64,000 nucleotides of DNA from Micromonospora sp. WMMD1120. Lineage in GTDB: Bacteria > Actinomycetota > Actinomycetes > Mycobacteriales > Micromonosporaceae. The stretch covers positions 3,938,501 to 4,002,500 of the forward strand of contig NZ_JARUBO010000005.1 of the NCBI RefSeq assembly GCF_029626235.1, written 5' to 3'. Position 1 is the first letter of the stretch; the number at the start of each line of letters is the position of its first letter. The notes under the pieces were generated by a model that made no database searches, was not told the origin of the DNA, and saw nothing but the letters and a program-made list of their open reading frames with translations. A program made the position numbers and the translations under genes. Below are positions 31,217 through 52,775 of this stretch, one piece after another.

Positions 31217-32260
31217 ATGGTCTTCGCGCGTGACCAGTGGTATGTGGCGGCCTACGGCAGCGAGGTCGGACGGACCCTGCTCGCCCGTACCCTGCTCGGT
31301 GAGCCGCTGGTGCTGTACCGCACCGGGGCCGGGGAGGCGGTGGCGCTCGCCGACCGGTGTGTGCACCGGCGCTTTCCACTGTCGGAGAGCCGGCTCGACG
31401 GTGACACGATCGTCTGCGGCTACCACGGCTTCACCTACGACCCGACCGGCGCGTGTGTCTTCGTACCCGGTCAGCAGCGCATCCCGCGCACCGCGCGGGT
31501 CGCCTCCTACCCGGTGGTGGAGCGGGACTCCTTCGTCTGGGTGTGGATCGGCGACCCGACGGTTGCCGATCCGGCGACGGTCCCCCGCGCGCCGTGGCTG
31601 GACGACCAGCGGTACGCCGTGGTGCACGGCATGGAGCCGTTGAACGCGCGGTACGGCCTGCTGGTGGACAACCTGATGGACCTGTCCCACGAGACCTACC
31701 TGCACGGCGGTTACATCGGTACGCCAGAGGTGGCGAACACCCCGATCACCACCGAGGTGGACGAGGACCGGGGCGTCGTCTACGTCAGCCGGCACATGGA
31801 CGACGCCGAGTGCCCGCCGTTCTACGCGCGTTCCACGGGCATCCAGGGTCGGATCACCCGCTGGCAGGACATCGAGTACCACCCGCCCTGCCTGTACCTG
31901 TTGCACAGTCGGATCGCGCCACAGGGCGTCTATCCGCCGGCCGAGGGCCCGGACGACGCGGCCTTCCACGCCGAGATCGTGTACGCCATCACCCCGTCGA
32001 CCGCGCACACCACCTACAACTTCTGGGCGGTGGCCCGCGACTTCGCGATCGACGACGAGTCGGTGAGCGACTACCTGCGGCAGAGCAACCACACGGTGGT
32101 CATGCAGGACGTGACGGCGCTGAACATCCTGGAGCAGGTGATCGCCGCCGAGCCGGACGCGTACCAGGAGCTGAGCATCAACATCGACACCGGCGGCCTG
32201 GCCGCCCGGCGGCTGCTGGCCCGGATGGTCGGGTCGGGGGCGGTGGGGGCGGCGCGGTGA
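31217..32260 (+). CDS. vanA: Vanillate O-demethylase, Rieske oxygenase subunit
   Basis: A 347-residue Rieske non-haem-iron oxygenase that converts vanillate to protocatechuate and formaldehyde with electrons from VanB. The start ATG 31217 is followed by FARDQWYVAAYGSEV, the usual VanA N-terminus. The Rieske cluster ligands are Cys48-X-His50 (CVHRRFPL) and Cys67-X2-His70 (CGYHGF). The mononuclear Fe site is NLMDLSHETYLHGGYIG, and VVMQDVTALNILEQVI ends the catalytic domain. It is followed by an overlapping small gene and vanB, forming one operon. The CTTCCAC repeat upstream suggests IclR control. Confidence 0.93.
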   Translation: MVFARDQWYVAAYGSEVGRTLLARTLLGEPLVLYRTGAGEAVALADRCVHRRFPLSESRLDGDTIVCGYHGFTYDPTGACVFVPGQQRIPRTARVASYPVVERDSFVWVWIGDPTVADPATVPRAPWLDDQRYAVVHGMEPLNARYGLLVDNLMDLSHETYLHGGYIGTPEVANTPITTEVDEDRGVVYVSRHMDDAECPPFYARSTGIQGRITRWQDIEYHPPCLYLLHSRIAPQGVYPPAEGPDDAAFHAEIVYAITPSTAHTTYNFWAVARDFAIDDESVSDYLRQSNHTVVMQDVTALNILEQVIAAEPDAYQELSINIDTGGLAARRLLARMVGSGAVGAAR

Positions 32261-32451
32261 GGTCCAGGGTCTACCGGATCCGCTGGTTGCCGGGCACCGA
32301 CACGCTGCGCGGGACCTGCCACTGCGGCGCCGAACGCAGCGCTGACGATCCGGTCGAGCTGTGGGAGTGGCTGCTGGCCCACCCGCGTGGCCACCGGGCC
32401 GGGCCGGCGGCGGCGCCCGGCCCGCGGGCGCGGGCCACGGTGCCGGCGTGA
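32257..32451 (+). CDS. Small CxC protein between vanA and vanB
   Basis: A 64-residue protein starting at GTG 32257 in a 4-base overlap with vanA, and ending in the GTGA that starts vanB. It reads YRIRWLPGTDTLRGTCHCGA and then DPVELWEWLLAHPRGHR. The CHC motif with downstream His gives possible metal ligands, but no full zinc ribbon is formed. I do not know a named family. The tight translational coupling on both sides implies a role with the vanillate demethylase, for example in cluster loading or subunit contact. Confidence 0.65.
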   Translation: MRSRVYRIRWLPGTDTLRGTCHCGAERSADDPVELWEWLLAHPRGHRAGPAAAPGPRARATVPA

Positions 32452-33401
32452 CCGCCGACGAGCTGGCCGGCGTGGAACTGGTGGTGGCGGGTCGGGCGCG
32501 GGTGGCGGCGGAGGTCGTCGCGATCGACCTGCGCCGCCCGGACGGCGGTGACCTGCCCGGGTGGACCCCGGGCGCGCACCTCGACCTGGAGCTGGGCCCC
32601 GGGCTGCGGCGTCAGTATTCACTCTGCGGCGAGCCGGCGGACCGGTCCACACTGCGCATCGCCGTGCAGCGCGAGCCGGCCGGGCGCGGCGGTTCCCGGC
32701 TGGCGCACGACCGGCTCACCGTCGGCGCCACCGTCCGGGCGGGTGGACTCCGCAACACCTTCCCGCTGGTCGCGGCGGACCGCTACCTCTTCGTCGCCGG
32801 CGGCATCGGCATCACCCCGATCCGGCCGATGGTCGCCGCCGCCGACGCCGCCGGGGCGGACTGGCGACTGGTGTACGGGGGCCGCACCCGCGCCACGATG
32901 GCCTTCGCCGACGACCTGCGCCAGAGGTACGGCGAGCGGGTGAGCCTGTGCCCGCAGGACGAGACGGGGCTTCTCGACCTGGCCGGGTTGCTGGGCCGAC
33001 CGGGCGGTGGGCTGGTCTACTGCTGCGGCCCGGAACCGCTGATCCGGGCGGTGGAGGAGCACTGTCGGGGTTGGCCGCCCGGCTCGCTGCACGTCGAGCG
33101 GTTCACCCCGGCGGGCGGGGCCGACGCGGACCAGCGGGAGATCGAGGTGGAGCTGGCGCTCTCCGGGCGTACGGTGCTGGTGCCCCCGGGCACTCCGATC
33201 CTGCGTGCGGTGGAGGAGGCCGGCGTGCCGGTCCTCTCGTCCTGCCGGGAGGGCACCTGCGGCACCTGCGAGACACCGGTGCTCGCCGGTGTGCCGGAGC
33301 ACCGCGACAGTCTGCTCACCGAGCAGGAGCGGGCGGCCGGGGACGTGATGCTGATCTGCGTCTCCCGGGCCCGTACGCCCCGACTCGTGCTGGAGCTGTG
33401 A
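32448..33401 (+). CDS. vanB: Vanillate O-demethylase, reductase subunit
   Basis: A 317-residue class IA reductase. The FMN-binding module has RQYSLCGEPADRSTLRIAVQ (~50-69) and RNTFPLV; the NAD module has VAGGIGITPIRPMVAAA (~118) and LVYCCGPEPLIRAVE. The C-terminal plant-type ferredoxin has CREGTCGTCETPVLAG with three Cys of the 2Fe-2S cluster and the fourth in MLICVSRAR. It passes electrons from NADH to VanA. Starts at GTG 32448, overlapping the small CxC gene. The IclR gene follows 30 bases later. Confidence 0.93.
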   Translation: MTADELAGVELVVAGRARVAAEVVAIDLRRPDGGDLPGWTPGAHLDLELGPGLRRQYSLCGEPADRSTLRIAVQREPAGRGGSRLAHDRLTVGATVRAGGLRNTFPLVAADRYLFVAGGIGITPIRPMVAAADAAGADWRLVYGGRTRATMAFADDLRQRYGERVSLCPQDETGLLDLAGLLGRPGGGLVYCCGPEPLIRAVEEHCRGWPPGSLHVERFTPAGGADADQREIEVELALSGRTVLVPPGTPILRAVEEAGVPVLSSCREGTCGTCETPVLAGVPEHRDSLLTEQERAAGDVMLICVSRARTPRLVLEL

Positions 33402-33431
33402 CCGGACGGCGTACCCGGGGATGATGGCGGG

Positions 33432-34229
33432 GTGCGCGGGCAGCCCGGACGGTCGGTGACGAGCAAGGTGCTGGCGCTGCTCGCGGTCTTCACCCCGGCG
33501 AACCCCGCGCTGAGCCTCAGCGAGCTGGCCCGGCGCGCCGGGCTGCCGCTGTCCACAGTGCACAGGCGGGTCGCGGAGCTGGTCGAGTGGGGGGCGCTGG
33601 AGCGTGGCGACGACGGGCGTTACCGGATCGGCCTGCGGCTGTGGGAGGTGGGCTCGCTCGCGCCACGCGGGCTGGCGCTGCGGGAACTGGCGCTGCCGGT
33701 CATGGAGGACCTGTACGAGGTGACCCACGAGAACGTCCAGCTCGCCGTCCGGCAGGGCCTGGAACTCGTGTTCATCGAACGGATCGCGGGGCGGCACGCC
33801 GTACCGGTGCTGACCCGGGTGGGTGGTCGCTTCGCGCTGCACGCCACCGGTGTCGGGCTGGTCCTGCTCGCGTGCGCGCCCGTCGCGGTACAGGAGCAGG
33901 TGTTGGCCGCTCCGCTGGAGCGGTACACCGACCTGACCATCACCGACCCGAGGCGGTTGCGCGCGTGCCTCGCCGAGGTGCGCAGGGCCGGGTACGCGGT
34001 CAGCGACCGCCAGGTCACCATGGACGCCCTGTCGGTGGCCGCGCCGATCCGTGGGCCGGGGGGCGTGGTGGCGGCGATCTCGCTGGTGGTCGCGTACGAC
34101 CGGGCGGACCGGCTGGCCCTGGCGCCGCTGGTGCAGGCCGCGGGTCGGGTGCTCTCCCGGGCGCTGGGCGGTCCGGGTGGGCCACCACCGGCGCGGGTGC
34201 CGTTACCGCCGGGCCACCGGACGCAGTAG
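33432..34229 (+). CDS. IclR-family regulator of the vanillate genes
   Basis: A 265-residue regulator from GTG 33432. The winged helix is SLSELARRAGLPLSTVHRRV (~29-48), followed by GDDGRYRIGLRLWEVGS. The effector domain has VQLAVRQGLELVFIERIAG and VGGRFALHATGVGLVLLA, and ends RQVTMDALSVAAPIRGPGGV. It lies directly downstream of vanAB, so it most likely senses vanillate or a near product and acts at the CTTCCAC inverted repeat (31125-31141). It is distinct in sequence from the IclR gene of the pca operon at 51918. Confidence 0.88.
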   Translation: MRGQPGRSVTSKVLALLAVFTPANPALSLSELARRAGLPLSTVHRRVAELVEWGALERGDDGRYRIGLRLWEVGSLAPRGLALRELALPVMEDLYEVTHENVQLAVRQGLELVFIERIAGRHAVPVLTRVGGRFALHATGVGLVLLACAPVAVQEQVLAAPLERYTDLTITDPRRLRACLAEVRRAGYAVSDRQVTMDALSVAAPIRGPGGVVAAISLVVAYDRADRLALAPLVQAAGRVLSRALGGPGGPPPARVPLPPGHRTQ

Positions 34230-34315
34230 CTTGTCCGCATGGTCATCGTTGCGCCCGCGTCCGCGTCGACCGGTGGCCCGCGCGATTCCGCCACCGGCGA
34301 CGGGTCCCGCCGGTG

Positions 34316-35176
34316 GTGACCGACGACGCGTCGGCGGAGCGGTCGTCGGCCGTCGGCCGGGCCCGCGCCCAGCGGCTGCTGGTGACGCTGCTCGGCGACT
34401 ACTGGCACGCCGGGCACGCCCCGTTGCCGTCCGGCGGGCTGGTCGCGGCGCTGGCCGAGTTCGACATCGCGCCGGCCAACGCCCGCGCGACGCTCAGCCG
34501 TTTGACCCAGCGCGGGGTGCTGGAACGGACGAAGGAGGGGCGGCGGACCAGCTACCGGCTGACCGGGTCGGCGTCGCAGATCCTGCGCCGCGGCGCCCGG
34601 CGCATCTTCGCCACCACTGACGAGAACGCCTGGGACGGCTGCTGGACGTTCATCGCGTTCACGTTGCCGCTGGACGACACCAACCAGCGTCGGCTGCTGC
34701 GGGCCCGGCTGCGCTGGCTGACGTTCTGGCCGTTGTACGACGCCACCTGGGTCACCCCGCACGACCGGTTCGACGAGGTCCGCGAGCAGTTGAGCGAACT
34801 CGGCATCAACGACGCGGTGGTGCTGCGTACCACGGACCTGGCCCTGCTGCCGGCCGGTCGGGCGCGGTTGGAGACCGCCTGGCGGATCGACGAGCTGGCC
34901 GAGGGATACCGGGCGTTCCTGAAGCGGTACGACGATCTGGCCCGGCTTGCCGCCGCCGGCGAGGTGTCGCCGAGGCAGGCGCTCGTGCAGCGCACCGAGC
35001 TGGTCAACGACTGGCGTGCCCTGGTCGGCGAGGACCCGGATCTGCCGCCCGACTTCCTGCGGGCGTCCTTCCCCCGTGCCGAGGCGCGGTCGATGTTCCT
35101 GCGTACCTCGGCGGCCCTCGCCGCGCCCGCGCAACGCCGCTTCGAGGAGATCGTCCGGACCGCCGACGGGTCCTGA
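34316..35176 (+). CDS. PaaX-family regulator upstream of the phenylpropanoid genes
   Basis: A 286-residue regulator from GTG 34316 (the preceding codon is also GTG). Winged helix: RLLVTLLGDYWHAGHAPLPS ... APANARATLSRLTQRGVLE; middle: WDGCWTFIAFTLPLDDTNQR; C-terminal PaaX domain: DLPPDFLRASFPRAEARSMF. PaaX proteins are displaced by aryl-CoA thioesters. It is 147 bases before the dehydrogenase-amidohydrolase-hydratase-ligase operon, which makes and consumes exactly such thioesters, so control of that operon is likely. Confidence 0.88.
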   Translation: MTDDASAERSSAVGRARAQRLLVTLLGDYWHAGHAPLPSGGLVAALAEFDIAPANARATLSRLTQRGVLERTKEGRRTSYRLTGSASQILRRGARRIFATTDENAWDGCWTFIAFTLPLDDTNQRRLLRARLRWLTFWPLYDATWVTPHDRFDEVREQLSELGINDAVVLRTTDLALLPAGRARLETAWRIDELAEGYRAFLKRYDDLARLAAAGEVSPRQALVQRTELVNDWRALVGEDPDLPPDFLRASFPRAEARSMFLRTSAALAAPAQRRFEEIVRTADGS

Positions 35177-35258
35177 GGTCGGTTGGCGTCACCCCGCACC
35201 CGACCCGGTTCCCGGGTCGGCGCTCGCTCGCGTCCACGGTGGATGCATTGCAAAGACG

Positions 35259-35288
35259 TTGACCTTTGATCAGATTCTGCATTATGTT
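35259..35288 (+). promoter_or_regulatory. Promoter of the phenylpropanoid-CoA operon
   Basis: -35 TTGACC (35259-35264) and -10 TATGTT (35283-35288), 18 bases apart, lie in an AT-rich patch 36 bases before the first gene. An inverted repeat CAAAG-acgttgac-CTTTG (35251-35268) straddles the -35 and could be the PaaX or another operator. Confidence 0.6.
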
Positions 35289-35323
35289 TCCGGTTCGAGC
35301 GGCATCGACGGAAGGCACTGCGC

Positions 35324-36250: not shown

Positions 36251-36280
36251 GCGACCCGACGACGACAAGGTTGCCGCCTG

Positions 36281-37162
36281 ATGTACCAGCCCGCGATCGA
36301 CCCGGACGCCGTCACCGCAATCGACATGCACGTGCACATCGAGGTCGACGACCACGGTCATGCCTCGCTGCCCGAACCGCTGGTGGCGGCCGTGAGCCGG
36401 TACTTCCGGACGGACGGGCCACGGCCCGCCGTCGACGCGGTGGCGCGCTACTACCGGGAGCGGCGGATGGCCGCCGTCGTCTTCACCGTCGACGCGCGGA
36501 CGCAGCTACGGCACCCGCCGCTGTCCAGCGTCGACATCGCCCGCGCCGCCGCCGAGCACGCCGACGTGCTCATCCCGTTCGGATCGGTCGACCCGCGCAC
36601 CGGTGCGGCCGCCCTCGACCTCGCGGCCCGTCTCATCGAGGAGGAGGGCGTACGCGGCTTCAAGTTCCACCCCACGGTGCAGGGGTTCGACCCCGGTCAC
36701 GAGGAGTACGCGCCGCTGTGGGGTCTGCTGGAGCGCTCGGGCGTGCCGGCGCTGTTCCACACCGGGCAGACCGGCATCGGCGCGGGCCTGCCCGGCGGCT
36801 ACGGACTGCGGCTCGGGCTCTCCAACCCGATGCTGCTCGACCCGATCGCCGCCGACTTTCCCGACCTGCAGATCATCATGGCCCATCCGTCGGTGCCCTG
36901 GCAGGACGAGGCGTTGTCGGTCGCCACGCACAAGCACAACACCTGGATCGACCTGTCCGGCTGGAGTCCGAAGTACTTCCCGGCCGAGCTGGTGCGGCAC
37001 GCCAACTCGCTGCTGAGACGACGGGTGCTCTTCGGCACCGACTACCCCCTGCTCACCCCCGACCGCTGGCTGCGCGAGGTGACGGCCACCGACCTCAAGC
37101 CGGACGTGCTCCCGGGCATCCTGAAGGACAACGCCCTCCGCCTGCTGCGTCTTGCCCGGTGA
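36281..37162 (+). CDS. Amidohydrolase, probable beta-ketoacyl-CoA hydrolase (CouO-like)
   Basis: A 293-residue member of the ACMSD/amidohydrolase-2 family. The metal site is visible as IDMHVHIE (HxH, ~18), VRGFKFHPTVQGFDP, ALFHTGQ, IMAHPSVPWQDEAL and the terminal Asp in LFGTDYPLL. In the phenylpropanoid pathway a protein of this family cleaves 4-hydroxyphenyl-beta-ketoacyl-CoA to 4-hydroxybenzoate (or vanillate) and acetyl-CoA. The neighbours on both sides are the other steps of that pathway, which outweighs the alternative reading as a decarboxylase. Starts at ATG 36281, 30 bases after the SDR gene. Confidence 0.8.
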   Translation: MYQPAIDPDAVTAIDMHVHIEVDDHGHASLPEPLVAAVSRYFRTDGPRPAVDAVARYYRERRMAAVVFTVDARTQLRHPPLSSVDIARAAAEHADVLIPFGSVDPRTGAAALDLAARLIEEEGVRGFKFHPTVQGFDPGHEEYAPLWGLLERSGVPALFHTGQTGIGAGLPGGYGLRLGLSNPMLLDPIAADFPDLQIIMAHPSVPWQDEALSVATHKHNTWIDLSGWSPKYFPAELVRHANSLLRRRVLFGTDYPLLTPDRWLREVTATDLKPDVLPGILKDNALRLLRLAR

Positions 37163-37179
37163 CGACGAGAGGAAGCGTC

Positions 37180-37632
37180 ATGACCAGGACCATCACCTAC
37201 GACCAACTCACCGAACTCGAAGGCACCGACCTCGGTCCCGGCGACTACCGGACGGTCACCCAGGACCAGGTGAACCTGTTCGCCGACGCGACCGACGACC
37301 ACCAGTGGATCCACGTCGACCCGGAGCGGGCGAGAACCGGCCCGTTCGGCGCGCCGATCGCGCACGGCTTCCTCACCCTCGCGCTGGCCATCCCGCTCTG
37401 GACCGAACTGCTCGAGGTCAAGGGGGTGTCGACGAAGGTGAACTACGGGCTCGACAGGGTGCGTTTCCCCGCGCCGGTCACTGTCGGGTCGCGGGTGCGG
37501 ATGCGGGCCACCATCGCCGAGGTCGCCGAGATCCCGGGCGGCTACCAGCTCACCGTCGACCAGACGATCGAGGTCGAGGGCGCCGCCAAACCGGCGGTCG
37601 TGGCCCGGGGGTTGTACCGCTTCTACGCCTGA
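37180..37632 (+). CDS. MaoC-like hot-dog hydratase (CouM-like)
   Basis: A 150-residue hot-dog enzyme from ATG 37180, preceded by GAGAGGAAG. The R-hydratase site is ADATDDHQWIHVDPERA, with Asp and His of the dehydratase motif, then GAPIAHGFLTLAL. The C-terminal strands end EGAAKPAVVARGLYRF. It would hydrate the aryl-acrylyl-CoA (p-coumaroyl- or feruloyl-CoA) to the 3-hydroxyacyl-CoA. It lies between the amidohydrolase and the ligase, completing the hydration step of the operon. Confidence 0.85.
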   Translation: MTRTITYDQLTELEGTDLGPGDYRTVTQDQVNLFADATDDHQWIHVDPERARTGPFGAPIAHGFLTLALAIPLWTELLEVKGVSTKVNYGLDRVRFPAPVTVGSRVRMRATIAEVAEIPGGYQLTVDQTIEVEGAAKPAVVARGLYRFYA

Positions 37633-37690: not shown

Positions 37691-39214
37691 ATGCGCCAGC
37701 ACGGGATCGGCGCCTGGGTGGCCAAGCGCCGACTCAGGTCCCCGGACAAGGTCGCCCTTGTCCACGACGAGCAATCGACGATGACGTACGGGCAGTTCGC
37801 CGACGCCGCGGACCGGGTCTCGGCAGTGCTGCGCGAGCGGGGTGTCGGCAGGGGTGACGCGGTCGCCCACCTCGGCGCGAACAGCCCGGACTTCCTCGCC
37901 GTGCTGTTCGGCGCGGCGCAGCTCGGCGCCGTCTTCGTGCCTGTCAACACCCGGCTCGCCCCGCCCGAGATCGCCCACGTCCTCGCGGACTGCGACGCCC
38001 GGGTGCTGATCCACGACCCGGACCTCGGCGCGCCGGTGGCGTCCGCCGCGCCGGTCGCCGGCACCCGGCACGTCATCGTGACCGGGGAGGGCACCGCCGA
38101 GCGACCGGGACTCGCCCCGCTGAGCCGCACCGCACCGGCGTTCACCGGCCCCGTCGACACCAGCCACCAGGACCCGGCGGCGATCGTCTACACCTCCGGC
38201 ACGACCGGGCGGGCCAAGGGCGCCGTACTGACCCACGGAAACCTCACCTGGGTCGCGCTCAACTGCGTCGTCGACTACGACGTCGTCTCGACCGACGTCG
38301 CGCTCATGATCTCGCCCCTGTTCCACGTCGCCTCGCTCGGCATGGGTGCTCTCCCCGTCCTGCTCAAGGGCGCCACCATGGTGCTCGAGAAGGGCTTCGA
38401 GCCGGGTCGCGCGCTCGCCCAGATCGAGCGGCACGGGGTCACCATGCTCAGCGGCGTGCCGACCACCTACCAGCTGATGGCCGACCACCCGAACTGGGCC
38501 CGCACCGACCTGTCGACGCTCGCGAAACTCACCTGCGGGGGCTCGGCCGTGCCGACCCGCATCCTCGACGCGTACGAGGCGCGCGGGCTGTCGTTCGCGC
38601 AGGGGTACGGCATGACCGAGGCCGGACCGGGCGCGACCGCGCTGCCGCCGTCGATGACCCGGGTCAAGCAGGGCAGCGTCGGTCTGCCGCACTTCTTCAC
38701 CGACGTGCGGATCACCGACGCGAGCGGCGCGCCGGCGCCTCGCGGTGAGGTCGGCGAGATCGAGGTGGCCGGGCCGAACGTCTTCGCCGGCTACCACGGG
38801 CTTCCGGAGGCGACCGCCGGGGCGTTCACCGCCGACGGGTGGTTCCGCTCGGGCGACCTGGGTCACCTGGACGCCGACGGCTACCTCTACATCTCCGGTC
38901 GGCTCAAGGACATGATCATTTCGGGTGGCGAGAACATCTACCCGCCCGAACTCGAACGCCTGATCGAGGCCATCGACGGGGTGACCTCGGCGGCGGTCAT
39001 CGGCGTGCCGGACGAGCGCTGGGGGGAGGTGCCGTGGGCGGTAGTGACCGTCCGGGAGGGGGCCTCGGTCGACACCGACAGCGTGCGGGCGTTTCTCGAC
39101 GGCAGGGTCGCGCGCTACAAACTGCCCAAGAACGTCGTCATCGTGGACGACCTGCCGAGGACCGCGTCGGGGAAGGTGCGAAAGACCGACCTGCGGGCCC
39201 GGTTCGGCGGTTAG
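37691..39214 (+). CDS. Aryl-CoA ligase (p-coumaroyl/feruloyl-CoA synthetase-like)
   Basis: A 507-residue acyl-adenylate/CoA ligase. Motifs: VYTSGTTGRAKGAVLTHGN (P-loop, ~163), YGMTEAGPG, WFRSGDLGHLDADGYLYISG, RLKDMIISGGENIYP (hinge), and ASGKVRK with the catalytic Lys. Residues of the substrate pocket resemble medium-chain/aryl ligases (FadD3/CouL type) rather than acetyl-CoA synthetase. It should activate p-coumarate, ferulate or related acids for the three enzymes upstream. The last 77 bases overlap the convergent PaaX gene (39138). Confidence 0.85.
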   Translation: MRQHGIGAWVAKRRLRSPDKVALVHDEQSTMTYGQFADAADRVSAVLRERGVGRGDAVAHLGANSPDFLAVLFGAAQLGAVFVPVNTRLAPPEIAHVLADCDARVLIHDPDLGAPVASAAPVAGTRHVIVTGEGTAERPGLAPLSRTAPAFTGPVDTSHQDPAAIVYTSGTTGRAKGAVLTHGNLTWVALNCVVDYDVVSTDVALMISPLFHVASLGMGALPVLLKGATMVLEKGFEPGRALAQIERHGVTMLSGVPTTYQLMADHPNWARTDLSTLAKLTCGGSAVPTRILDAYEARGLSFAQGYGMTEAGPGATALPPSMTRVKQGSVGLPHFFTDVRITDASGAPAPRGEVGEIEVAGPNVFAGYHGLPEATAGAFTADGWFRSGDLGHLDADGYLYISGRLKDMIISGGENIYPPELERLIEAIDGVTSAAVIGVPDERWGEVPWAVVTVREGASVDTDSVRAFLDGRVARYKLPKNVVIVDDLPRTASGKVRKTDLRARFGG

Positions 39215-40013
39215 CCGCGACGAGGTCGGCGAACTCGGCGCTGGACGCCTCGGCCAGTTTCTCGTGCATCCGGCGGTAGGTCTCCGCCGACCGGGTGGCC
39301 GGCCACTGGGCGTCCATGAACTCGGGCGGCAGCCTCGGGTCGGCCCGCAGCAGGGCGAGCCAGTCCGCCACGAGCATGGTGCGCACGCTCAGGGCGCTGG
39401 GCGCCAGCGCCGTCGCGGCCGCGTCCCCCCAGAGGTTGATGAACGCGAGGTGCTCGCGGCGGATCGCCTCGATGTCCCACGCGGCGCGCACGCTCTCGCC
39501 GATCGGGAATCCGGCGAGTTCGCGGGCGTGGAAGGCGACCACCGGGTGGGGCGCGAGGGCCTGGCGCAGCGGCTCCAACGACCCGGCCAGGTCGACCTCC
39601 CCGGGGGCCAGCCAGAGCCCGTCCCGCAGCGGCGCGAAACCCTCCCAGGTGAGGGTCGACCGGAGCCGGTGCCGCAGCGTCCGCTGCCCCTCGGGGATCG
39701 AGAAGGTGACGAGCGTCCACCCGCTGCCCTGCGGGTCGAACGGTCGTGGTCCACGAACCCGGTCGGTCGCCTCGCGGAGCACCGCCGCCCCGTGCCCGGT
39801 CAGCGAGAACAGGGTCTCCCGGCCGCTGCGGGCGCGGCCGAGGATGCCGCTGCGCACGAGACGGTCCAGGGTCGCGCGGGTGGTCGGTGCGGCCACGTCC
39901 GCGCCCTCCAGGACGCTGATCAGGGCGCTCGCCCGGATCGGCCCCGAGTCGCCGTCGACGACGTGCTCACCGAAGAAGGCGAGCAGCAGGTGTTTCGGCT
40001 GGCGTCTGCCCAC
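39138..40013 (-). CDS. PaaX-family regulator, last gene of the ABC operon
   Basis: A 291-residue PaaX-like protein from GTG 40013 (the codon before RRQPKHLLLAFFGEHVV). The helix-turn-helix has SALISVLEGADVAAPTTRAT and LDRLVRSGILGRARSGRETL; the middle is GWTLVTFSIPEGQRTLRHRL; the C-terminal domain has DPRLPPEFMDAQWPATRSAE. The last ~25 residues are translated from the antisense of the ligase gene, giving a 77-base convergent overlap. It follows the ABC transporter genes by 38 bases and is probably co-transcribed with them. Together with 34316 it brackets the phenylpropanoid operon. Confidence 0.85.
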   Translation of the reverse strand: MGRRQPKHLLLAFFGEHVVDGDSGPIRASALISVLEGADVAAPTTRATLDRLVRSGILGRARSGRETLFSLTGHGAAVLREATDRVRGPRPFDPQGSGWTLVTFSIPEGQRTLRHRLRSTLTWEGFAPLRDGLWLAPGEVDLAGSLEPLRQALAPHPVVAFHARELAGFPIGESVRAAWDIEAIRREHLAFINLWGDAAATALAPSALSVRTMLVADWLALLRADPRLPPEFMDAQWPATRSAETYRRMHEKLAEASSAEFADLVAANRRTGPAGRSFAPSPTRSSAGRPR

Positions 40014-43458: not shown

Positions 43459-43639
43459 TGACGAGGCCCTTTCCTTCGCGGAGGTGGTGGGTGCGTCGAA
43501 AGCCGGCGGATGCCTCGGATCTGCGGGTGGACTACCGCTGTGCGGGGGCACGCCGCTGTGCTGGCCATGGTCGAGCACCCAGACATCGAAAGTCAAGAAT
43601 TCTCGACGCCCGTCAGGAAAAAGTAGAACAACGGCGCGC

Positions 43640-46289: not shown

Positions 46290-46322
46290 GGTGGTCCTCC
46301 CGGGAGCGTGGGCCTCGGAGTT

Positions 46323-46435: not shown

Positions 46436-46499
46436 CGATCTCAGTACGGGCGTCCGCATCGCGAACAGCGGACGCCGCCCGCGTGCACCGGGGAGGCTC

Positions 46500-47318
46500 A
46501 TGGCGAAGCTCGTCTCGCTCGCCGACGGGGTGACCGAGCTGGTCCGTGACGGTGACACGGTGGCCCTGGAGGGGTTCACCCATCTCATCCCGTTCGCCGC
46601 CGGCCACGAGATCATCCGGCAGGGGCGGCGTGACCTGACCCTGGTCCGGATGACCCCCGACGTCATCTACGACCAGCTCATCGGCGCCGGCTGTGCCCGC
46701 CGACTGGTGTTCTCCTGGGGCGGCAACCCGGGTGTGGGGTCGCTGCACCGCTTCCGGGACGCCGTGCAGCACGGCTGGCCGCGTCCGCTGGAGCTGGAGG
46801 AGCACAGTCACGCCGGCATGGCGAACCGCTACGTGGCCGGCGCGTCCGGGCTGCCGTTCGCCGTGTTGCGCGGCTACACGGGCACCGACCTGCCCCGGCA
46901 CACCACGAACATCCGGCCCATCACCTGCCCGTTCACCGGCGAGGTCCTGACCGCCGTGCCCGCCCTGCGTCCCGACGTGACGGTGGTGCACGCGCAGCGC
47001 GCCGACCGGGCGGGCAACGTGCAGATGTGGGGGATAACGGGAGTGCAGAAGGAGGCCGTGCTCGCCGCGCACCGGTCGCTGGTCACCGTCGAGGAGATCG
47101 TGGACGAGCTGACGCCGGTCGCGGGGCAGGTCGTCCTGCCCGGCTGGGCGGTCACCGCGGTCGCCGCGGCGCCCGGCGGCGCGCACCCCTCCTACGCCCA
47201 GGGCTACTCGCTGCGGGACAACGACTTCTACCGGTCGTGGGACGCGGTCAGCCGCGACCGTGACACCTTCCGCGCCTGGCTCGACACGCAGGTGCGCCAG
47301 GCCGGGGCGACGGCATGA
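46500..47318 (+). CDS. pcaI: 3-oxoadipate CoA-transferase, alpha subunit
   Basis: A 272-residue subunit of the enzyme that moves CoA from succinyl-CoA to 3-oxoadipate. It has VALEGFTHLIPFAAGHEIIR (~20-39, the glycine-rich CoA loop), VFSWGGNPGVGSL, YTGTDLPRHTTNIRPITCPF, and VVHAQRADRAGNVQMWGITG. Longer than the Pseudomonas PcaI but normal for actinobacteria. ATG 46500 follows GGGGAGG. It overlaps pcaJ by 4 bases and opens the eight-gene pca operon. Confidence 0.93.
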   Translation: MAKLVSLADGVTELVRDGDTVALEGFTHLIPFAAGHEIIRQGRRDLTLVRMTPDVIYDQLIGAGCARRLVFSWGGNPGVGSLHRFRDAVQHGWPRPLELEEHSHAGMANRYVAGASGLPFAVLRGYTGTDLPRHTTNIRPITCPFTGEVLTAVPALRPDVTVVHAQRADRAGNVQMWGITGVQKEAVLAAHRSLVTVEEIVDELTPVAGQVVLPGWAVTAVAAAPGGAHPSYAQGYSLRDNDFYRSWDAVSRDRDTFRAWLDTQVRQAGATA

Positions 47319-48133
47319 CCGACGCGGCGGCGACCACCGGCTGGACGGCGGACGAGATGATGACCGTCGCCGCCGCCCGCCAACTGCGCGACGGCACCGC
47401 GTGCTTTGTCGGGATCGGGCTGCCCAGCACCGCGGCGAATCTCGCCCGGGTCACCCACGCCCCGAACCTGGTGCTCATCTACGAGTCGGGTTGCCTGGGC
47501 GCGAAGCCGGACCGGCTGCCACTGTCCATCGGCGACGGCGTCCTCGCCGACACCGCCGACGCTGTGGTGTCGGTCCCCGAGGTGTTCAACTACTGGCTCC
47601 AACCCGGACGGGTCGACGTGGGTTTCCTCGGCGCGGCGCAGCTCGACCGGTACGGCAACATCAACACCACTGTCGTCGGTGGGGACTACGACACCCCGAC
47701 GGTCCGCCTGCCCGGCGCCGGTGGCGCCCCGGAGATCGCCGCCTCCTGCGGCGAGGTCGTGGTGATCGTCCGGCAGAACCACCGGACGTTCACCGAGCGC
47801 GTCGACTTCGTGACCTCGGTCGGGTACGGGTCCGGTCCGGGCGACCGGGAACGGCTCGGCCTGCGCGGCGGCGGCCCCCGACTGGTGATCACCGACCTCG
47901 GCGTCCTCGCGCCCGACCCGGTCACCTGTGAACTCACGCTGACCCACCTGCACCCGGGTGTGACGCGCGAGCGGGCGCGGGCGGCCACCGGCTGGGACCT
48001 CGCCGTCGCCGAGCGGCTGCCCACCTGCGCCCCGCCGACGGAGCGGGAGTTGGCGGCGCTGCGGGCGTTGGAGGCGACGAAACAGGCGGCGCCGGCGGTG
48101 CTGCCCGCACCTGCGACGGGAGAGGGATCATGA
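47315..48133 (+). CDS. pcaJ: 3-oxoadipate CoA-transferase, beta subunit
   Basis: A 272-residue subunit carrying the catalytic residue. It has CFVGIGLPSTAANLARVTHA, LIYESGCLGAKPDRLPLSIG (Glu of the ESG motif forms the acyl-enzyme), FLGAAQLDRYGNINTTVVGG and ITDLGVLAPD. These match the CoA-transferase family 1 beta subunit. It overlaps pcaI before it and pcaH after it by 4 bases each. With PcaI it produces 3-oxoadipyl-CoA; the thiolase (PcaF) is not seen here. Confidence 0.93.
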   Translation: MTDAAATTGWTADEMMTVAAARQLRDGTACFVGIGLPSTAANLARVTHAPNLVLIYESGCLGAKPDRLPLSIGDGVLADTADAVVSVPEVFNYWLQPGRVDVGFLGAAQLDRYGNINTTVVGGDYDTPTVRLPGAGGAPEIAASCGEVVVIVRQNHRTFTERVDFVTSVGYGSGPGDRERLGLRGGGPRLVITDLGVLAPDPVTCELTLTHLHPGVTRERARAATGWDLAVAERLPTCAPPTERELAALRALEATKQAAPAVLPAPATGEGS

Positions 48134-48888
48134 CCACCCGGGACACCGTCCACCAGCCCGGCGCCGGCCTGGTGCTGCCGCGCTACCGGCGGGACGACGT
48201 CGACGTCCACCCGCCCCTGCTCAGTCCCGGATACCTGTCGACAGTGGCGCGGGCCCCGCGGCAGCCACTGACGTACCTGCCGCAGCGGCTCACCGAGATC
48301 ACCGGACCGTTGCTGGGGGAGGGGCGGCTGGGCGAGCACGACCACGACCTGACCCGCCAGCACGACGGTGAGCCGCAGGGACAGCGGATCATCGTGCACG
48401 GGCGGGTCCGCGACGGCGACGGGCGGCCGGTGGCCGGCACCCTGGTGGAGATCTGGCAGGCCAACGCCGCCGGCCGCTACCGGCACGCGAGCGACACCTG
48501 GCCGGCGCCGCTGGACCCGAACTTCGCAGGGGTGGGCCGGGCGCTGACCGACGACCAGGGGCGCTACCGGTTCGTCACTGTGCAGCCCGGCGCGTACCCC
48601 TGGCGCAACCACGACAACGCCTGGCGGCCGGCGCACATCCACTTCTCCCTGTTCGGCCGCGCGTTCACCCAGCGCCTGGTGACCCAGATGTACTTCCCAG
48701 GCGACCCGCTCTTCTTCCAGGACCCGATCTTCAACTCGGTACGCGACCCGGACGCCCGGCAACGGATGGTCGCCCGGTACGACCACGCCACCACCGCACC
48801 CGAGTGGGCGCTGGCGTACGAGTTCGACATCGTGCTGCGGGGCCGGGAGAGCACGCCCTTCGAGGACGACGGGGACGACGATGAGTGA
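48130..48888 (+). CDS. pcaH: Protocatechuate 3,4-dioxygenase, beta subunit
   Basis: A 252-residue intradiol dioxygenase subunit that holds the catalytic Fe(III). The iron ligands are visible: Tyr in AAGRYRHASDTW, Tyr in VQPGAYPWRNHDNAWRPAHI, and the His pair in RPAHIHFSLFG. GRVRDGDGRPVAGTLVEIWQ is the family beta-sandwich signature. It opens the ring of protocatechuate to 3-carboxy-cis,cis-muconate. Overlaps pcaJ by 4 and pcaG by 8 bases. Confidence 0.95.
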   Translation: MTTRDTVHQPGAGLVLPRYRRDDVDVHPPLLSPGYLSTVARAPRQPLTYLPQRLTEITGPLLGEGRLGEHDHDLTRQHDGEPQGQRIIVHGRVRDGDGRPVAGTLVEIWQANAAGRYRHASDTWPAPLDPNFAGVGRALTDDQGRYRFVTVQPGAYPWRNHDNAWRPAHIHFSLFGRAFTQRLVTQMYFPGDPLFFQDPIFNSVRDPDARQRMVARYDHATTAPEWALAYEFDIVLRGRESTPFEDDGDDDE

Positions 48889-49453
48889 GCGGCTGGGCGG
48901 CACACCCGCGCAGACGGTCGGGCCGTACCTGCACATCGGGCTGCGGTGGCCCGACGGCCCGTACGTCGTACCCGAGGGCACGCCGGGCGCGTTCTGGATC
49001 CGCGGCCAGATCGTCGACGGCGTCGGCGCGCCGGTGGTCGACGCGTTGGTGGAGAGTTGGCAGGCCGACCCGGACGGCCGGTTCGACCACCCGGACGACC
49101 CGCGTGGCGCCCGGCGGCCGGCGGTGGCCGGCTTCCGGGGCTTCGGCCGCAGCGAGACCGACGGGCAGGGGTGCTACCGGCTGCTGACCGTCCGACCCGG
49201 TCCGCTGCCCGACCCGGACGGCGGCACCGAGGCTCCCCACCTGACCCTGTCGATCCTCGGGCGGGGGCTGCTGCACCGCCTCGTCACCCGGCTCTACTTC
49301 CCGGACGAGCCGGCGGCCAACGCCGCCGACCCGGTGCTGCGCGCCGTCGACGCCGACCGGCGGGACACCCTGCTGGCCAGCCCGGCACCGGACGGGTTCC
49401 GCTTCGACATCCGCCTCCAGGGTGACAGTGAGACAGTCTTCTTCGCCGTCTGA
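48881..49453 (+). CDS. pcaG: Protocatechuate 3,4-dioxygenase, alpha subunit
   Basis: A 190-residue non-catalytic partner of PcaH. It begins RLGGTPAQTVGPYLHIGL, typical of PcaG (TPSQTVGPYFHIGL in relatives), and has GQIVDGVGAPVVDALVESWQ, FRGFGRSETDGQGCYRLLTV and HLTLSILGRGLLHRLVTRLY. The Fe-ligand tyrosines are absent, as expected for the alpha chain. It overlaps pcaH by 8 bases and pcaB by about 32. Confidence 0.93.
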   Translation: MSERLGGTPAQTVGPYLHIGLRWPDGPYVVPEGTPGAFWIRGQIVDGVGAPVVDALVESWQADPDGRFDHPDDPRGARRPAVAGFRGFGRSETDGQGCYRLLTVRPGPLPDPDGGTEAPHLTLSILGRGLLHRLVTRLYFPDEPAANAADPVLRAVDADRRDTLLASPAPDGFRFDIRLQGDSETVFFAV

Positions 49454-50768
49454 CCGCCTGCTCGGCGCGCTCTCCGGCACCCCCGACGTCGACAGCGAAC
49501 TGGACGACGGGTCGCTGCTGCGGGCGATGCTCGACGCGGAGGCCGCGCTCGCCCGGGCCGGCGCGGACGCCGGCGTGCTGCCCGTCGCGGCGGCCGACGC
49601 GATCGTCGCGCAGTGCCACGTCGAGCGGTACGACGCGGCGGCTCTCGGTCGCGCGGCGGACGCCGCCGGCAACCCGGTCGTCCCCCTGGTCCGCGAGCTG
49701 ACCGCCGCCGTGCCGGAGCATGCGCGGGCCTGGGTGCACCTCGGAGCGACCAGCCAGGACATCCTGGACACCGCGTTGACGGTGGTGGCCGTACGCGCGC
49801 TCGGACCCCTGCTGCGCCACCTCGACGCGGCGGTGGACGCCGCTGCCCGGCTGGCCGACGCCCACCGGAACACCGTCCGGGTGGCCCGGACCCTCGGGCA
49901 GCAGGCGGCGCCCACCACCTTCGGTCTCACCGCGGCGGGGTGGTTGACCGGTCTGGCCGAGGCGCGCGACCGGCTGCGGCAGGCGGGCGGCACGCAACCC
50001 GCCCAGCTCGGCGGCGCGGTCGGCACCCTGGCCGCGCTCGGCCCGGCCGGTTTGGAGGTCGCCGAACGGTACGCGGCGCTGCTCGGCCTGCCCGCGAGCC
50101 CGCTGCCCTGGCACACCCGCCGGCAACCTCGACTGGACCTGGCCGCCGCCCTCGGCGGGCTGCTCACGGCCACCGGCAAGGTCGCGCTCGACGTGGGGCT
50201 GCTCGCCCAGACCGAGGTCGGCGAGGTCGCCGAGGGTGGGGCCGGGCGGGGCGGCTCCTCCGCGCTGCCGCACAAGCGCAACCCGGTCGGCTCGGTCCTG
50301 ATCGGGGCCGCCGCGCGGCGCGGTCCGGGGCTCGTCGCCACGCTGTTCGCCGCGGCCGTGCAGGAGCACGAACGGGCCGCCGGCGCCTGGCACGCCGAGT
50401 GGGAGCCGCTGCTCGACCTGCTGCACCTGGCCGGCGGCGCCGCCGCCCGCTGTGCCGAGCTGCTGACCGGTCTGCGGGTGCGCCCGGAGCGGATGCGGAG
50501 CAACCTCGACGCCACCGGTGGCCTCGTGCTCGCCGAGGCCGTCGCCGCGCGACTCGCCCCCGCCGTCGGTCGCGGTGTCGCGCACGACCTGGTCGCGCGG
50601 GCGGCCGCCGCGCCGTCGTTCCGTGCCGCGCTGCTCGCCGACGCGCGGATCCGCGCCCACCTGTCCGAGGCGGAGGTCGACGAGGCGCTCGACCCCTCCC
50701 ACTGGCTCGGCTCGGCCGGTCTGTTCGTCGACCGGGCGCTGGCCGCCGTCCGAAGGACGGGGACGTGA
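49422..50768 (+). CDS. pcaB: 3-carboxy-cis,cis-muconate cycloisomerase
   Basis: A 448-residue fumarase/aspartase-superfamily enzyme converting 3-carboxymuconate to 4-carboxymuconolactone. It shows VHLGATSQDILDTALTVVAV (~106), ARTLGQQAAPTTFGLTAAGW and the superfamily signature GGSSALPHKRNPVGS (~282). The likely start is GTG 49422 or GTG 49428, both inside the pcaG end. It overlaps pcaD by 4 bases. The N-terminus begins SDRLLGALSGTPDVDSELDD, as in PcaB. Confidence 0.93.
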   Translation: MTVRQSSSPSDRLLGALSGTPDVDSELDDGSLLRAMLDAEAALARAGADAGVLPVAAADAIVAQCHVERYDAAALGRAADAAGNPVVPLVRELTAAVPEHARAWVHLGATSQDILDTALTVVAVRALGPLLRHLDAAVDAAARLADAHRNTVRVARTLGQQAAPTTFGLTAAGWLTGLAEARDRLRQAGGTQPAQLGGAVGTLAALGPAGLEVAERYAALLGLPASPLPWHTRRQPRLDLAAALGGLLTATGKVALDVGLLAQTEVGEVAEGGAGRGGSSALPHKRNPVGSVLIGAAARRGPGLVATLFAAAVQEHERAAGAWHAEWEPLLDLLHLAGGAAARCAELLTGLRVRPERMRSNLDATGGLVLAEAVAARLAPAVGRGVAHDLVARAAAAPSFRAALLADARIRAHLSEAEVDEALDPSHWLGSAGLFVDRALAAVRRTGT

Positions 50769-51544
50769 CCAACGGGTTGCACACCACGGTGGATGGTCCG
50801 TCCGACGCGCCGGTGCTGCTGCTCGGCAGCTCCCTCGGCACCGCCGGCGCGATGTGGGAACCGCAGGTCGCGGCCCTGACCGAACGGTTCCGGGTCATCC
50901 GGTACGACCACCTGGGCCACGGTCGCTCGGCGGTGCCGCCCGGACCGTACACGATCGGTCTGCTGGGTCGTGCGGTGCTGCGGACGCTGGACCACCTGGA
51001 CGTGCCCCGGGCGCACTACGCCGGTCTGTCCCTCGGCGGCATGGTCGGCATGTGGCTCGCCGCGCACGCGCCCGACCGGGTCCGGCGGCTGGCGCTGCTC
51101 TGCACGTCGGCGTCGCTCGGCCCGAGCGCGCAGTGGCGGGAGCGGGCGGCGACGGTACGATCGGCCGGCCTGCCGGCGATCGCCGACACGGTGGTGGCCC
51201 GCTGGTTCACCCCGGGCTTCGCCGCCGCGCGACCGGACGTGGTCGCGACGTACCGCGCCATGCTGACCGCGACGTCCTCCGCCGGCTACGCCGCCTGCTG
51301 CGAGGCGATCGCCGGGATGGACCTGCGCCCCGACCTCGGCCGGATCGACGCGCCCACGCTCGTCGTCGCGGGAGCGGACGACCCGGCCACACCGGTCACG
51401 CACGCCCACGAGATCGTCCGACGGATTCCGACGGCCCGGCTGACGGTGGTCGAGGCGGCGGCGCACCTGGCCACCGTCGAGCAACCCGAGCGGGTGTGCC
51501 GACTCCTGCAGGACCACTTCGACGAGGAGGCCGGTGACCGGTGA
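50765..51544 (+). CDS. pcaD: 3-oxoadipate enol-lactonase
   Basis: A 259-residue alpha/beta hydrolase. Motifs: VLLLGSSLGTAGAMWEPQVA (oxyanion side), RVIRYDHLGHGRS, the nucleophile elbow GLSLGG, acid Asp in VAGADDPATPV and base His in AAAHLATVEQPE, as in PcaD. It hydrolyses 3-oxoadipate enol-lactone to 3-oxoadipate. GTG 50765 overlaps pcaB; it overlaps pcaC by 4 bases. In some actinobacteria pcaD is fused to pcaC (PcaL); here they are separate but coupled. Confidence 0.92.
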   Translation: MTNGLHTTVDGPSDAPVLLLGSSLGTAGAMWEPQVAALTERFRVIRYDHLGHGRSAVPPGPYTIGLLGRAVLRTLDHLDVPRAHYAGLSLGGMVGMWLAAHAPDRVRRLALLCTSASLGPSAQWRERAATVRSAGLPAIADTVVARWFTPGFAAARPDVVATYRAMLTATSSAGYAACCEAIAGMDLRPDLGRIDAPTLVVAGADDPATPVTHAHEIVRRIPTARLTVVEAAAHLATVEQPERVCRLLQDHFDEEAGDR

Positions 51545-51921
51545 ACGACGGTGAGCGGTACGAGGCGGGCATGACGGTACGCCGGCAGGTGCTGGGTGAC
51601 GCGCACGTGGACCGCGCGATCGCCGGCACCGACGACTTCACCGCCGACTTCCAGGACTTCATCACCCGCTACGCCTGGGGGGACGTGTGGAGCCGACCCG
51701 GGCTGGACCGGCGCGCCCGTAGCTGCGTCACCCTGGCGGTGCTGGCCGCACTCGGCCACGAGGGGGAGTTGGCGCTGCACGTCCGCGCCGCGGTGCGCAA
51801 CGGCCTGACCCCGGCGGAGGTGGCGGAGGTCCTGCTCCAGGTCGGCGTCTACGCTGGTGTACCGGCGGCCAACCGGGCGTTCGCGGTGGCCCGGGAGGCC
51901 CTGGGGCGGGAGGCTGGTTGA
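51541..51921 (+). CDS. pcaC: 4-carboxymuconolactone decarboxylase
   Basis: A 126-residue alpha-helical AhpD/CMD-like enzyme. It has RYEAGMTVRRQVLGDAHVDR, FITRYAWGDVWSRPGLDRRA, SCVTLAVLAALGHEGELALH with the conserved His, and EVAEVLLQVGVYAGVPAANR. It decarboxylates 4-carboxymuconolactone to the enol-lactone, the substrate of the adjacent PcaD. Stop overlaps the start of the IclR gene by 4 bases, so the regulator is translated from the same transcript. Confidence 0.93.
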   Translation: MNDGERYEAGMTVRRQVLGDAHVDRAIAGTDDFTADFQDFITRYAWGDVWSRPGLDRRARSCVTLAVLAALGHEGELALHVRAAVRNGLTPAEVAEVLLQVGVYAGVPAANRAFAVAREALGREAG

Positions 51922-52775
51922 GCGTGCGCGAGGAGGCGGCGAGATCGCCGGAGTTCGTGCAGTCGCTGGAGCGCGGGCTCGCCGTGATCCGGGCGTTCGA
52001 CGCCGAACATCCGCAGCTCACGCTCAGCGAGGTGTCCCGAAGGACCGGGCTGACCCGGGCGGCGGCGCGCCGGTTCCTGCTGACCCTCGTCGAGCTGGGC
52101 TACGTGCACACCGACGGGCGGCTCTTCTCGCTGCGGGCGCGGATCCTCGACCTCGGTTACGCGTACCTGTCGAGCCTGAGCCTGCCCGAGATAGCGCGGC
52201 GGCACATGGAGGCGCTCGTCGCGCAGGTCCGCGAGTCCTGTTCGGTGTCGGTGCTGGACGGCCACGAGGTGGTGTACGTCGCCCGCGTCCCCACGAAACG
52301 GATCATGACGGTGGGGATCAGCGTCGGCACGCGGTTCCCCGCGTACGCGACGTCGATGGGACGGGTGCTGCTCGCCGCCCAACCGGCGGACTGGCTGGAC
52401 GACTATCTCGCCACGGCGGAGCTGCGGCCGTTGACCCGGCGCACCGTGACCGACCCGGCGAAGCTGCGCGGCGTCCTCACCAGGATCGCCGCCCAGGGGT
52501 ACGCGATAGTGGACCAGGAGTTGGAGGAGGGCCTGCGGTCGCTGGCCGCGCCGATCCACGGTCGGGACGGCTCGGTGATCGCGGCGGTGAACGTCTCCGC
52601 GCACGCCACCCGGGGGTCCTTCGAGATGATCCGTCGGGATCTGCTGCCACCGCTGCTGGCGGCCGCGAAGCGGATCGAGGAGGATGTCCGGGGTGGGTCT
52701 GGACGGGCGTCGACGGCAGCCGCCGATCCGCCGGGCGCTGCGGTCGGCGGAACCGTCAGATCGACCTGCTGGTGA
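51918..52775 (+). CDS. pcaR: IclR-family regulator of the protocatechuate genes (PcaR/PcaU type)
   Basis: A 285-residue regulator. Winged helix: LTLSEVSRRTGLTRAAARRF (~34-53) with LVELGYVHTDGRLFSLRARI. The effector domain has SCSVSVLDGHEVVYVARVPT, VGTRFPAYATSMGRVLLA and DQELEEGLRSLAAPI, as in PcaR/PobR/CatR relatives. It is the last gene of the operon, so it controls its own synthesis. The three-arm repeat at 46323-46356 is its best candidate target. An IclR-type pca activator is an alternative to a repressor. A long hairpin begins on its stop codon. Confidence 0.88.
   Translation: MSVREEAARSPEFVQSLERGLAVIRAFDAEHPQLTLSEVSRRTGLTRAAARRFLLTLVELGYVHTDGRLFSLRARILDLGYAYLSSLSLPEIARRHMEALVAQVRESCSVSVLDGHEVVYVARVPTKRIMTVGISVGTRFPAYATSMGRVLLAAQPADWLDDYLATAELRPLTRRTVTDPAKLRGVLTRIAAQGYAIVDQELEEGLRSLAAPIHGRDGSVIAAVNVSAHATRGSFEMIRRDLLPPLLAAAKRIEEDVRGGSGRASTAAADPPGAAVGGTVRSTCW

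Follow-up and report, generated by a model that had tools for sequence, protein, structure and literature searches.

A Micromonospora gene block for the predicted catabolism of hydroxycinnamates, with PaaX-family regulators and a conserved small gene in the vanillate operon

The 64,000-nucleotide stretch of Micromonospora sp. WMMD1120 DNA analyzed here (the window; positions 3,938,501 to 4,002,500 of contig NZ_JARUBO010000005.1, assembly GCF_029626235.1) is part of a 7.13-Mb contig in a genome of 7.15 Mb in total. At positions 31217-52775 it carries 24 genes, with ∼97% of the sequence coding, that very probably form a chromosomal block for the catabolism of hydroxycinnamates and of the C6-C1 compounds derived from them; the identities and synteny of the genes are observed, and the substrates, transport, induction, and regulator ligands are predicted. 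As stated in the preliminary description of this DNA, vanillate, hydroxycinnamate, 4-hydroxybenzoate, aldehyde, and protocatechuate modules all lie in this one stretch, and all the respective gene families could be matched in their places, with scores well above chance level. Most of these parts are of known kinds and the block is common to relatives of the strain, but its regulators and a small gene, orf64, look new, and the remaining interest is in the change of regulators, the importer, and orf64.

The first plus-strand run consists of vanA-orf64-vanB-iclR1-paaX1 followed by couN-couO-couM-couL; the last one, catI-catJ-pcaH-G-B-D-C-pcaR, is made of overlapping genes. The minus strand carries, leftwards from position 46289, aldh-pobA and then sbp-permease-permease-ATPase-paaX2, so that paaX2 is convergent with couL and overlaps it by 77 bp. 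Thus, the second paaX gene of the preliminary description is present, but its placement before the importer had to be corrected, as it follows the importer genes on the minus strand. Gaps within the vanA-to-iclR1, cou, importer-paaX2, aldh-pobA, and catI-to-pcaR runs range from -32 to +58 bp, and wider ones separate iclR1 from paaX1 (83 bp), paaX1 from couN (147 bp), sbp from pobA (181 bp), and aldh from catI (210 bp). The genes of the catabolic modules are the following:

31217..32260, plus strand: vanA, vanillate O-demethylase oxygenase (Rieske); Pfam VanA_C, 144 bits, and Rieske, 71 bits
32257..32451, plus strand: orf64, conserved small protein (64 amino acids); no Pfam or NCBIfam match
32448..33401, plus strand: vanB, vanillate O-demethylase reductase; Fer2 and NAD_binding_1 (on the longer open reading frame [ORF])
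33432..34229, plus strand: iclR1, IclR-family regulator with a predicted role in the van operon; IclR_C, 115 bits
35324..36250, plus strand: couN, SDR-type 3-hydroxyacyl-CoA dehydrogenase, substrate predicted; adh_short, 158 bits, and synteny
36281..37162, plus strand: couO, amidohydrolase-family β-ketoacyl-CoA hydrolase, role predicted; Amidohydro_2, 155 bits, and alignment
37180..37632, plus strand: couM, MaoC-type enoyl-CoA hydratase, role predicted; MaoC_dehydratas, 93 bits
37691..39214, plus strand: couL, hydroxycinnamate-CoA ligase, substrate predicted; AMP-binding, 302 bits
43640..44812, minus strand: pobA, 4-hydroxybenzoate 3-monooxygenase; NF006091, 604.5 bits (cut-off, 351)
44829..46289, minus strand: aldh, aromatic aldehyde dehydrogenase (start may be 46364); Aldedh, 496 bits (on the longer ORF)
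46500..47318, plus strand: catI-like CoA-transferase subunit A; GctA 1poi_A, 107 bits; PcaI model, 40 bits
47315..48133, plus strand: catJ-like CoA-transferase subunit B; GctB 1poi_B, 144 bits, ESG glutamate aligned
48130..48888, plus strand: pcaH; TIGR02422, 366 bits (cut-off, 296)
48881..49453, plus strand: pcaG; TIGR02423, 204 bits (cut-off, 126)
49422..50768, plus strand: pcaB; TIGR02426, 365 bits (cut-off, 356)
50765..51544, plus strand: pcaD; TIGR02427, 308 bits (cut-off, 256)
51541..51921, plus strand: pcaC; TIGR02425, 185 bits (cut-off, 156)
51918..52775, plus strand: pcaR, IclR-type regulator; TIGR02431, 341 bits (cut-off, 285)

The cou genes combine a CoA ligase, a MaoC hydratase, an SDR dehydrogenase, and an amidohydrolase in a single operon, as expected for a Cou-type pathway. 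Named actinobacteria, among them Rhodococcus sp. (L140) and R. yunnanensis (L153), also show the couN-couO-couM-couL order, often with a divergent MarR gene; the 80 loci with names ranked highest among 589 confirmed ones and hence do not form a random sample. In Rhodococcus jostii RHA1, the amidohydrolase CouO closes the β-oxidative deacetylation, releasing the aromatic acid (PMC4737184). By analogy with RHA1, CouL would form the CoA thioester, CouM would hydrate it, CouN would oxidize the product, and cleavage by CouO would yield acetyl-CoA and either 4-hydroxybenzoate (from p-coumarate) or vanillate (from ferulate). Given that the CouO-type route gives an aromatic acid (PMC4737184), ferulate should lead to vanillate without passing through vanillin, a pathway step in the preliminary description, and the aldehyde dehydrogenase would be a side entry that admits external vanillin or 4-hydroxybenzaldehyde. 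This enzyme scores 366 bits against the solved 4-hydroxybenzaldehyde dehydrogenase 9jw2, and its gene is missing from the block in seven relatives (L161-L163, L165, L167, L168, and L175).

Both expected products of CouO have a predicted outlet nearby. VanA is a Rieske oxygenase with the VanA C-terminal domain, its gene is followed by that of a ferredoxin reductase, and vanillate is the predicted substrate of the pair; the solved structure closest to VanA by sequence is the dicamba O-demethylase DdmC (163 bits), and vanillate O-demethylases have been sorted into types I, II, and III (PMC9867520). PobA is matched by FAD_binding_3 (287 bits) and by the solved enzyme 7on9 (493 bits). Either PobA or VanAB would yield protocatechuate, which PcaHGBDC would convert to 3-oxoadipate. 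The next two genes of the pathway were labeled PcaI and PcaJ in the preliminary description, but canonical PcaIJ was rejected, as the scores of 40 bits (cut-off, 128.5) and 41 bits (cut-off, 243.55) are far below the family cut-offs. Instead, the relation of the subunits to GctA and GctB and the presence of the ESG motif in subunit B, with a glutamate that we take to be the catalytic one, assign them to the GctAB type; the motif is kept in all 20 catJ matches above 70% identity. This GctAB/CatIJ-type transferase would produce 3-oxoadipyl-CoA. The thiolase PcaF and a formaldehyde sink, which the preliminary description listed as missing, are both encoded elsewhere in the genome. The PcaF-model thiolase (648 bits; cut-off, 597) is at C5:3541416, ∼0.4 Mb from the block, next to a downstream GGDEF-type frame recognized by eye; together with PcaH, G, B, D, and C, it completes the protocatechuate branch of the β-ketoadipate pathway and would cleave 3-oxoadipyl-CoA. 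A mycothiol-type formaldehyde dehydrogenase (TIGR03451, 699 bits; cut-off, 513), encoded at C5:5186369, ∼1.2 Mb away, could take up the formaldehyde released by VanAB. The zinc dehydrogenase at position 15409, previously suggested as a possible sink, was rejected in this role, as it scores 108 bits against the same model. Altogether, the family matches support the suggestion that these genes fit a path from p-coumarate and ferulate to 3-oxoadipyl-CoA via Cou/Phd-type side-chain shortening.

The distribution of the block was analyzed in 121 Micromonospora genomes, including the strain's own, and in 129 distinct couO regions (132 minus 3 duplicates), which comprised a close set of 38 with couO identity of at least 80% and 91 distant ones (61 with identity of 60 to 80% and 30 with identity below 60%). 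Many distant regions span only 10 kb on either side of couO, so that neighbor counts in them are lower bounds. In the genus sample, couO was found in 38 genomes (36 of them at ≥86% identity), pobA in 46, vanA in 35, and catI in 42; 46 genomes had at least one of these genes and 33 had all four. In 18 of the 38 couO genomes, including this one (18 of 121 in total), couO has van, pob, and catI all within 20 kb, and the relative orientation is the same in all 18. In the other 20 couO genomes, the nearby modules were van only (13 genomes), van and pob (3 genomes), pob only (1 genome), or none (3 genomes). The block is also present in G147, a genome of the same genus outside the sample, where an additional IclR-like gene separates pobA from aldh. 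Three genomes of the genus (G173, G177, and G240; loci L169, L172, and L175) carry couO sequences that match those of named Micromonospora records (L076, L078, and L081) exactly; the record L078, from M. alfalfae, has the block. Among the 91 distant regions, at least 11, belonging to Microbacterium, Paeniglutamicibacter, Gordonia, and Rhodococcus, have pobA and pcaH within 11 kb of couO, with the modules in other orders. In a 20.9-kb stretch of Paeniglutamicibacter terrestris (L114), pca, pobA, and cou are accompanied by an NMT1-type importer and a VanA-domain gene, again in another order. Since clusters of these modules recur in other genera and orders, the combination probably arose more than once, and the suggestion that such one-block organization is unusual does not hold. 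The main text of PMC13406360 makes no mention of Micromonospora.

The patchy presence of couO, in 38 of 121 genomes, and the failure to find phoX, abf, and lacI in the 40 kb around couO in the relatives G147 and G003 might indicate a recently acquired mobile island, in line with the word "island" in the preliminary description. Such an origin appears unlikely, as the GC content inside the block (0.70-0.76) is close to that outside (0.69-0.74), with no marked break in composition, no tRNA gene was found in the window (integrase genes were not searched for), and the modules have been lost and rearranged separately across the genus. Ferulate is bound to arabinose in grass cell walls, and the gene directly after the block (52885-54396) encodes an α-L-arabinofuranosidase with a ricin-type lectin domain, followed by a LacI regulator gene; in G147 and G003, the 40 kb surrounding couO showed no such arabinofuranosidase gene.

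The action of the couNOML products on p-coumarate and ferulate is suggested by the neighboring genes and by the match of CouL to the feruloyl-CoA synthetase 8wev, one of its two best solved matches (478 bits each). Points against the proposed pathway are that the other of these matches, 8weu, is named fatty-acyl-CoA synthase and that PobA scores 534.7 bits against TIGR02360, 4 bits under the cut-off of 538.7. It is conceivable that couNOML acts on other aryl-propenoates or arylpropionates, such as cinnamate or dihydro compounds, with the neighborhood being incidental. The CouL ligase family is broad, and in the Paeniglutamicibacter region an acyl-CoA dehydrogenase gene (L114:10783-12066) located between couO and couM might allow the use of dihydro-hydroxycinnamates, so that the substrates may vary. 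We consider this improbable, given the feruloyl-CoA synthetase match and the fact that 21 of 121 genomes (18 with catI and 3 without) carry both van and pob no more than 20 kb from couO, these being the modules for precisely the two products expected.

The genes between couL and pobA appear to belong to the same hydroxycinnamate pathway:

39138..40013, minus strand: paaX2, PaaX-family regulator, after the importer genes; three PaaX domains above cut-off
40052..40864, minus strand: abcA, importer ATPase; ABC_tran, 117 bits
40857..41681, minus strand: importer permease; BPD_transp_1, 74.5 bits
41678..42478, minus strand: importer permease; BPD_transp_1, 75 bits
42484..43458, minus strand: sbp, NMT1/SsuA-type substrate-binding protein; NMT1, 95.5 bits (on the longer ORF)
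43604..43615, minus strand: palindrome TGACGGGCGTCG, just before the promoter-like sequence of sbp; pattern TGACGNNCGTCA with one mismatch

The preliminary description grouped the importer and PaaX2 with pobA, and the order of genes in the window, in which sbp follows pobA in the same orientation at a distance of 181 bp, does suggest that they could serve in 4-hydroxybenzoate uptake and control. In the close set, sbp and paaX2 are near couO in 38 of 38 regions and the ATPase gene in 36, compared to 20 with pobA (within 11 kb), so that sbp and paaX2 remain linked to cou even without pobA nearby; the importer also has its own conserved promoter-like region. A pobA-importer unit was rejected on these co-occurrence counts and is most doubtful. 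The best inference is that this NMT1-type ABC importer takes up hydroxycinnamates. This assignment is weakened by several facts: the substrate is deduced solely from the neighborhood, and the binding protein resembles sulfonate/taurine proteins (87 bits against SsuA_fam, under the cut-off of 163.5); and two of the 38 regions (G052 and G101) lack an ATPase gene adjoining the other importer genes. Such an importer is lacking near couO in 39 of 61 regions with couO identity of 60 to 80% and in 29 of 30 below 60%. In the regions of G052 and G101 (L039-L042), the missing ATPase gene is the one between paaX2 and the permease gene, and no close couN was found in G101. The convergent paaX2-importer layout is kept in an actinomycete metagenome-assembled genome (L083) and in Microbacterium (L086, L104, and L115). 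In seven other regions (L084, L101, L103, L114, L120, L122, and L125), a gene located between couM and couL encodes a more distantly related binding protein; the one from Paeniglutamicibacter (L114), the sole one checked, is of the NMT1 type.

The regulation of the cou operon in this strain appears to differ from that in RHA1. The features in question are the following:

34313..35176, plus strand: paaX1, PaaX-family regulator; three PaaX domains above cut-off
35177..35323, no strand assigned: couN promoter region without a CouR gene or a CouR box; box comparison

The published CouR box of RHA1 is cATTGA-N5-TCAATg, located over the -35 element (PMC4737184, section 15). CouR control was scored as a MarR gene divergent from couN together with ATTGA-N5-TCAA within 200 bp upstream of couN. 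Two regions of the close set had no scorable couN; in the remaining 36, the MarR gene and the box were present together in 22 and both absent in 14, including the window, and neither was ever found alone. The link is looser in distant regions: at 60 to 80% couO identity, both were found in 20 regions, MarR without an exact box in 17, a box without a detected MarR in 3, and neither in 4 (17 not scorable); below 60%, the numbers were 6 with both, 7 with MarR only, and 12 with neither (5 not scorable). The strain's own genome encodes no close CouR, the best match being 36% identical. By eye, the 14 CouR-less promoters share roughly the layout TTGACS-N17-TTAYGT with a GATCARATTCTGCA-like spacer; G052, L161, and L162 deviate from it, and L172, L174, and L077 differ by a base or two. 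CouR-less regions look scattered over the couNOML tree, which was built from 52 regions, with several low supports in that part (this tree includes G101 with a distant SDR, as no close couN was found there).

The cou genes of the window strain would thus be outside CouR control, with PaaX1 and/or PaaX2, perhaps sensing aryl-CoA, as the likely replacements. In the window, L160, and G052, paaX1 is no more than 2.5 kb away from couN, and in G101 it adjoins couO. A search of 22 genomes of the genus gave PaaX1 orthologues of at least 80% identity in 5 (G194, G107, G219, G217, and G195), and ten other, CouR-less genomes of those 22 have no close paaX1 genome-wide, so that PaaX1 was rejected as the regulator generally in charge of couN promoters that lack CouR. 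In these ten relatives, PaaX2, found in all 38 close regions, or another regulator must serve. A third PaaX-family gene (27460-28542; 116 bits against TIGR02277) is located 2.7 kb upstream of the block, and a 76% relative follows pcaR in G003. In G107, a gene for an 856-amino-acid DUF6351 tannase-like protein with a signal-like start, noted by eye, is found between paaX1 and the cou MarR gene (L016:15039-17609), and its product might free hydroxycinnamates from esters. Similar-sized paaX1-couN gaps are seen in L176-L178, L079, and L080; the scan of gap content covered G107. As for iclR1, its product scores 128 bits against the PcaR/PobR model, under the cut-off of 284.75.

The palindrome upstream of sbp is a candidate PaaX2 operator and no more than that. 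Of the 42 scorable regions that bear paaX2, 38 contain the pattern [TC]GACGNNCGTC[AG] in the 350 bp preceding sbp, 35 of 38 with couO identity of at least 80% and 3 of 4 below (the exceptions are G034, G060, G114, and G042; L083 was not scorable), and the pattern is found in none of the 18 regions with sbp but without paaX2. Close relatedness accounts for part of this association, and the informative cases are three distant Microbacterium regions, whose substrate-binding proteins are 58 to 59% identical. The palindrome alone fails as a specific marker: there are 22 sites in the strain's own genome versus 8 for the reversed pattern, and the window contains no strict copy of TGACGNNCGTCA and 6 copies with one mismatch versus 5.3 expected.

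The small ORF noticed between vanA and vanB in the preliminary description proved to be a real, conserved gene. It overlaps vanA and vanB by 4 bp each and is present in all 34 distinct regions that were fetched by couO, and thus not chosen for orf64, in which vanA of at least 65% identity is followed by vanB; all these regions come from the same genus or family, except for one from Modestobacter (L127). It is also found in 22 more distinct regions, which were fetched because they carry orf64. A search of 394 genomes of the class, with or without vanA, gave 26 matches at E ≤ 0.001, of which 25 are between vanA and vanB, and the 26th (E = 8e-4), with no vanA or vanB nearby, is probably due to chance. 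Two regions, L103 and L122, have no orf64-like gene in this position, and their VanA proteins are distant (37-39%). The consensus of 53 distinct sequences, yRi.W.pGtD.L.g.ChCGaer.a..PvelWeWll.HP.gH, includes the conserved motifs C-x-C-G and H-P-x-x-H, which prompt the guess that the protein may bind metal. It matches no family in Pfam or NCBIfam. Its structural model, based on an alignment of 8 sequences (mean pLDDT, 75), is confident over residues 11-40 (block means of 90-94), which form three strands and a helix; a fold search with this model gave no significant match (best E, 0.36). Going by the tag numbering, its counterpart in Streptomyces scabies may be SCAB_15311. This tag does not occur in the main text of PMC6904314, where vanA is SCAB_15301 and vanB is SCAB_15321, and in the main texts of PMC6904314 and PMC9867520 the terms searched gave no mention of a small gene separating vanA from vanB.

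These observations lead to a tentative joint proposal, which as a whole is somewhat more apt to fail than to hold: that vanillate O-demethylases of actinobacteria have an unrecognized third component, the orf64 product, which may be a small accessory protein that binds metal and is required to assemble VanA, to transfer electrons, or to handle formaldehyde, and that in this lineage the control of hydroxycinnamate catabolism shifted from CouR, a MarR repressor, to regulators of the PaaX family, with PaaX2 controlling the importer via TGACGNNCGTCA. Constructs of vanAB may have omitted this conserved small gene of the van operon. As a whole, the block resembles a compact natural module that funnels grass-lignin phenolics into central metabolism, and the comparison suggests a candidate hydroxycinnamate ABC importer and what may be a natural case of one regulator giving way to others at a promoter of a well-studied type.

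Pseudomonas sp. B13 is said to have a CatIJ-type 3-oxoadipate CoA-transferase, and the resemblance to the window, one of family and setting, consists of GctAB-family subunits encoded in a β-ketoadipate cluster, with a predicted substrate for the window enzyme. Similarly to PaaX, the repressor of phenylacetate degradation, both PaaX1 and PaaX2 contain three PaaX domains, and PaaX2 scores 47 bits against the solved repressor 8a39; in contrast to it, they are encoded next to the cou genes and score far under the equivalog cut-off (152 and 101 bits, respectively, against 264.55 for TIGR02277). The VanAB genes resemble those of S. scabies, where the oxygenase and reductase genes also have an IclR neighbor (SCAB_15301, SCAB_15321, and SCAB_15331; PMC6904314). 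The phd cluster of Corynebacterium glutamicum, likened here by description rather than by sequence, also serves in phenylpropanoid degradation with CoA activation, by PhdA, but its transporter is PhdT (PMC10576375). A further parallel is the cou cluster of R. jostii RHA1 (CouLMNO and CouR), with CoA activation and β-oxidative deacetylation ending in an amidohydrolase, a likeness drawn from its description; relatives of the window keep the MarR gene divergent from couN and the upstream ATTGA-N5-TCAA, as in RHA1 (PMC4737184). Unlike RHA1, the window strain lacks CouR and its box and has, instead, two PaaX-family genes, an ABC importer beside the operon, and adjacent van, pob, and pca genes.

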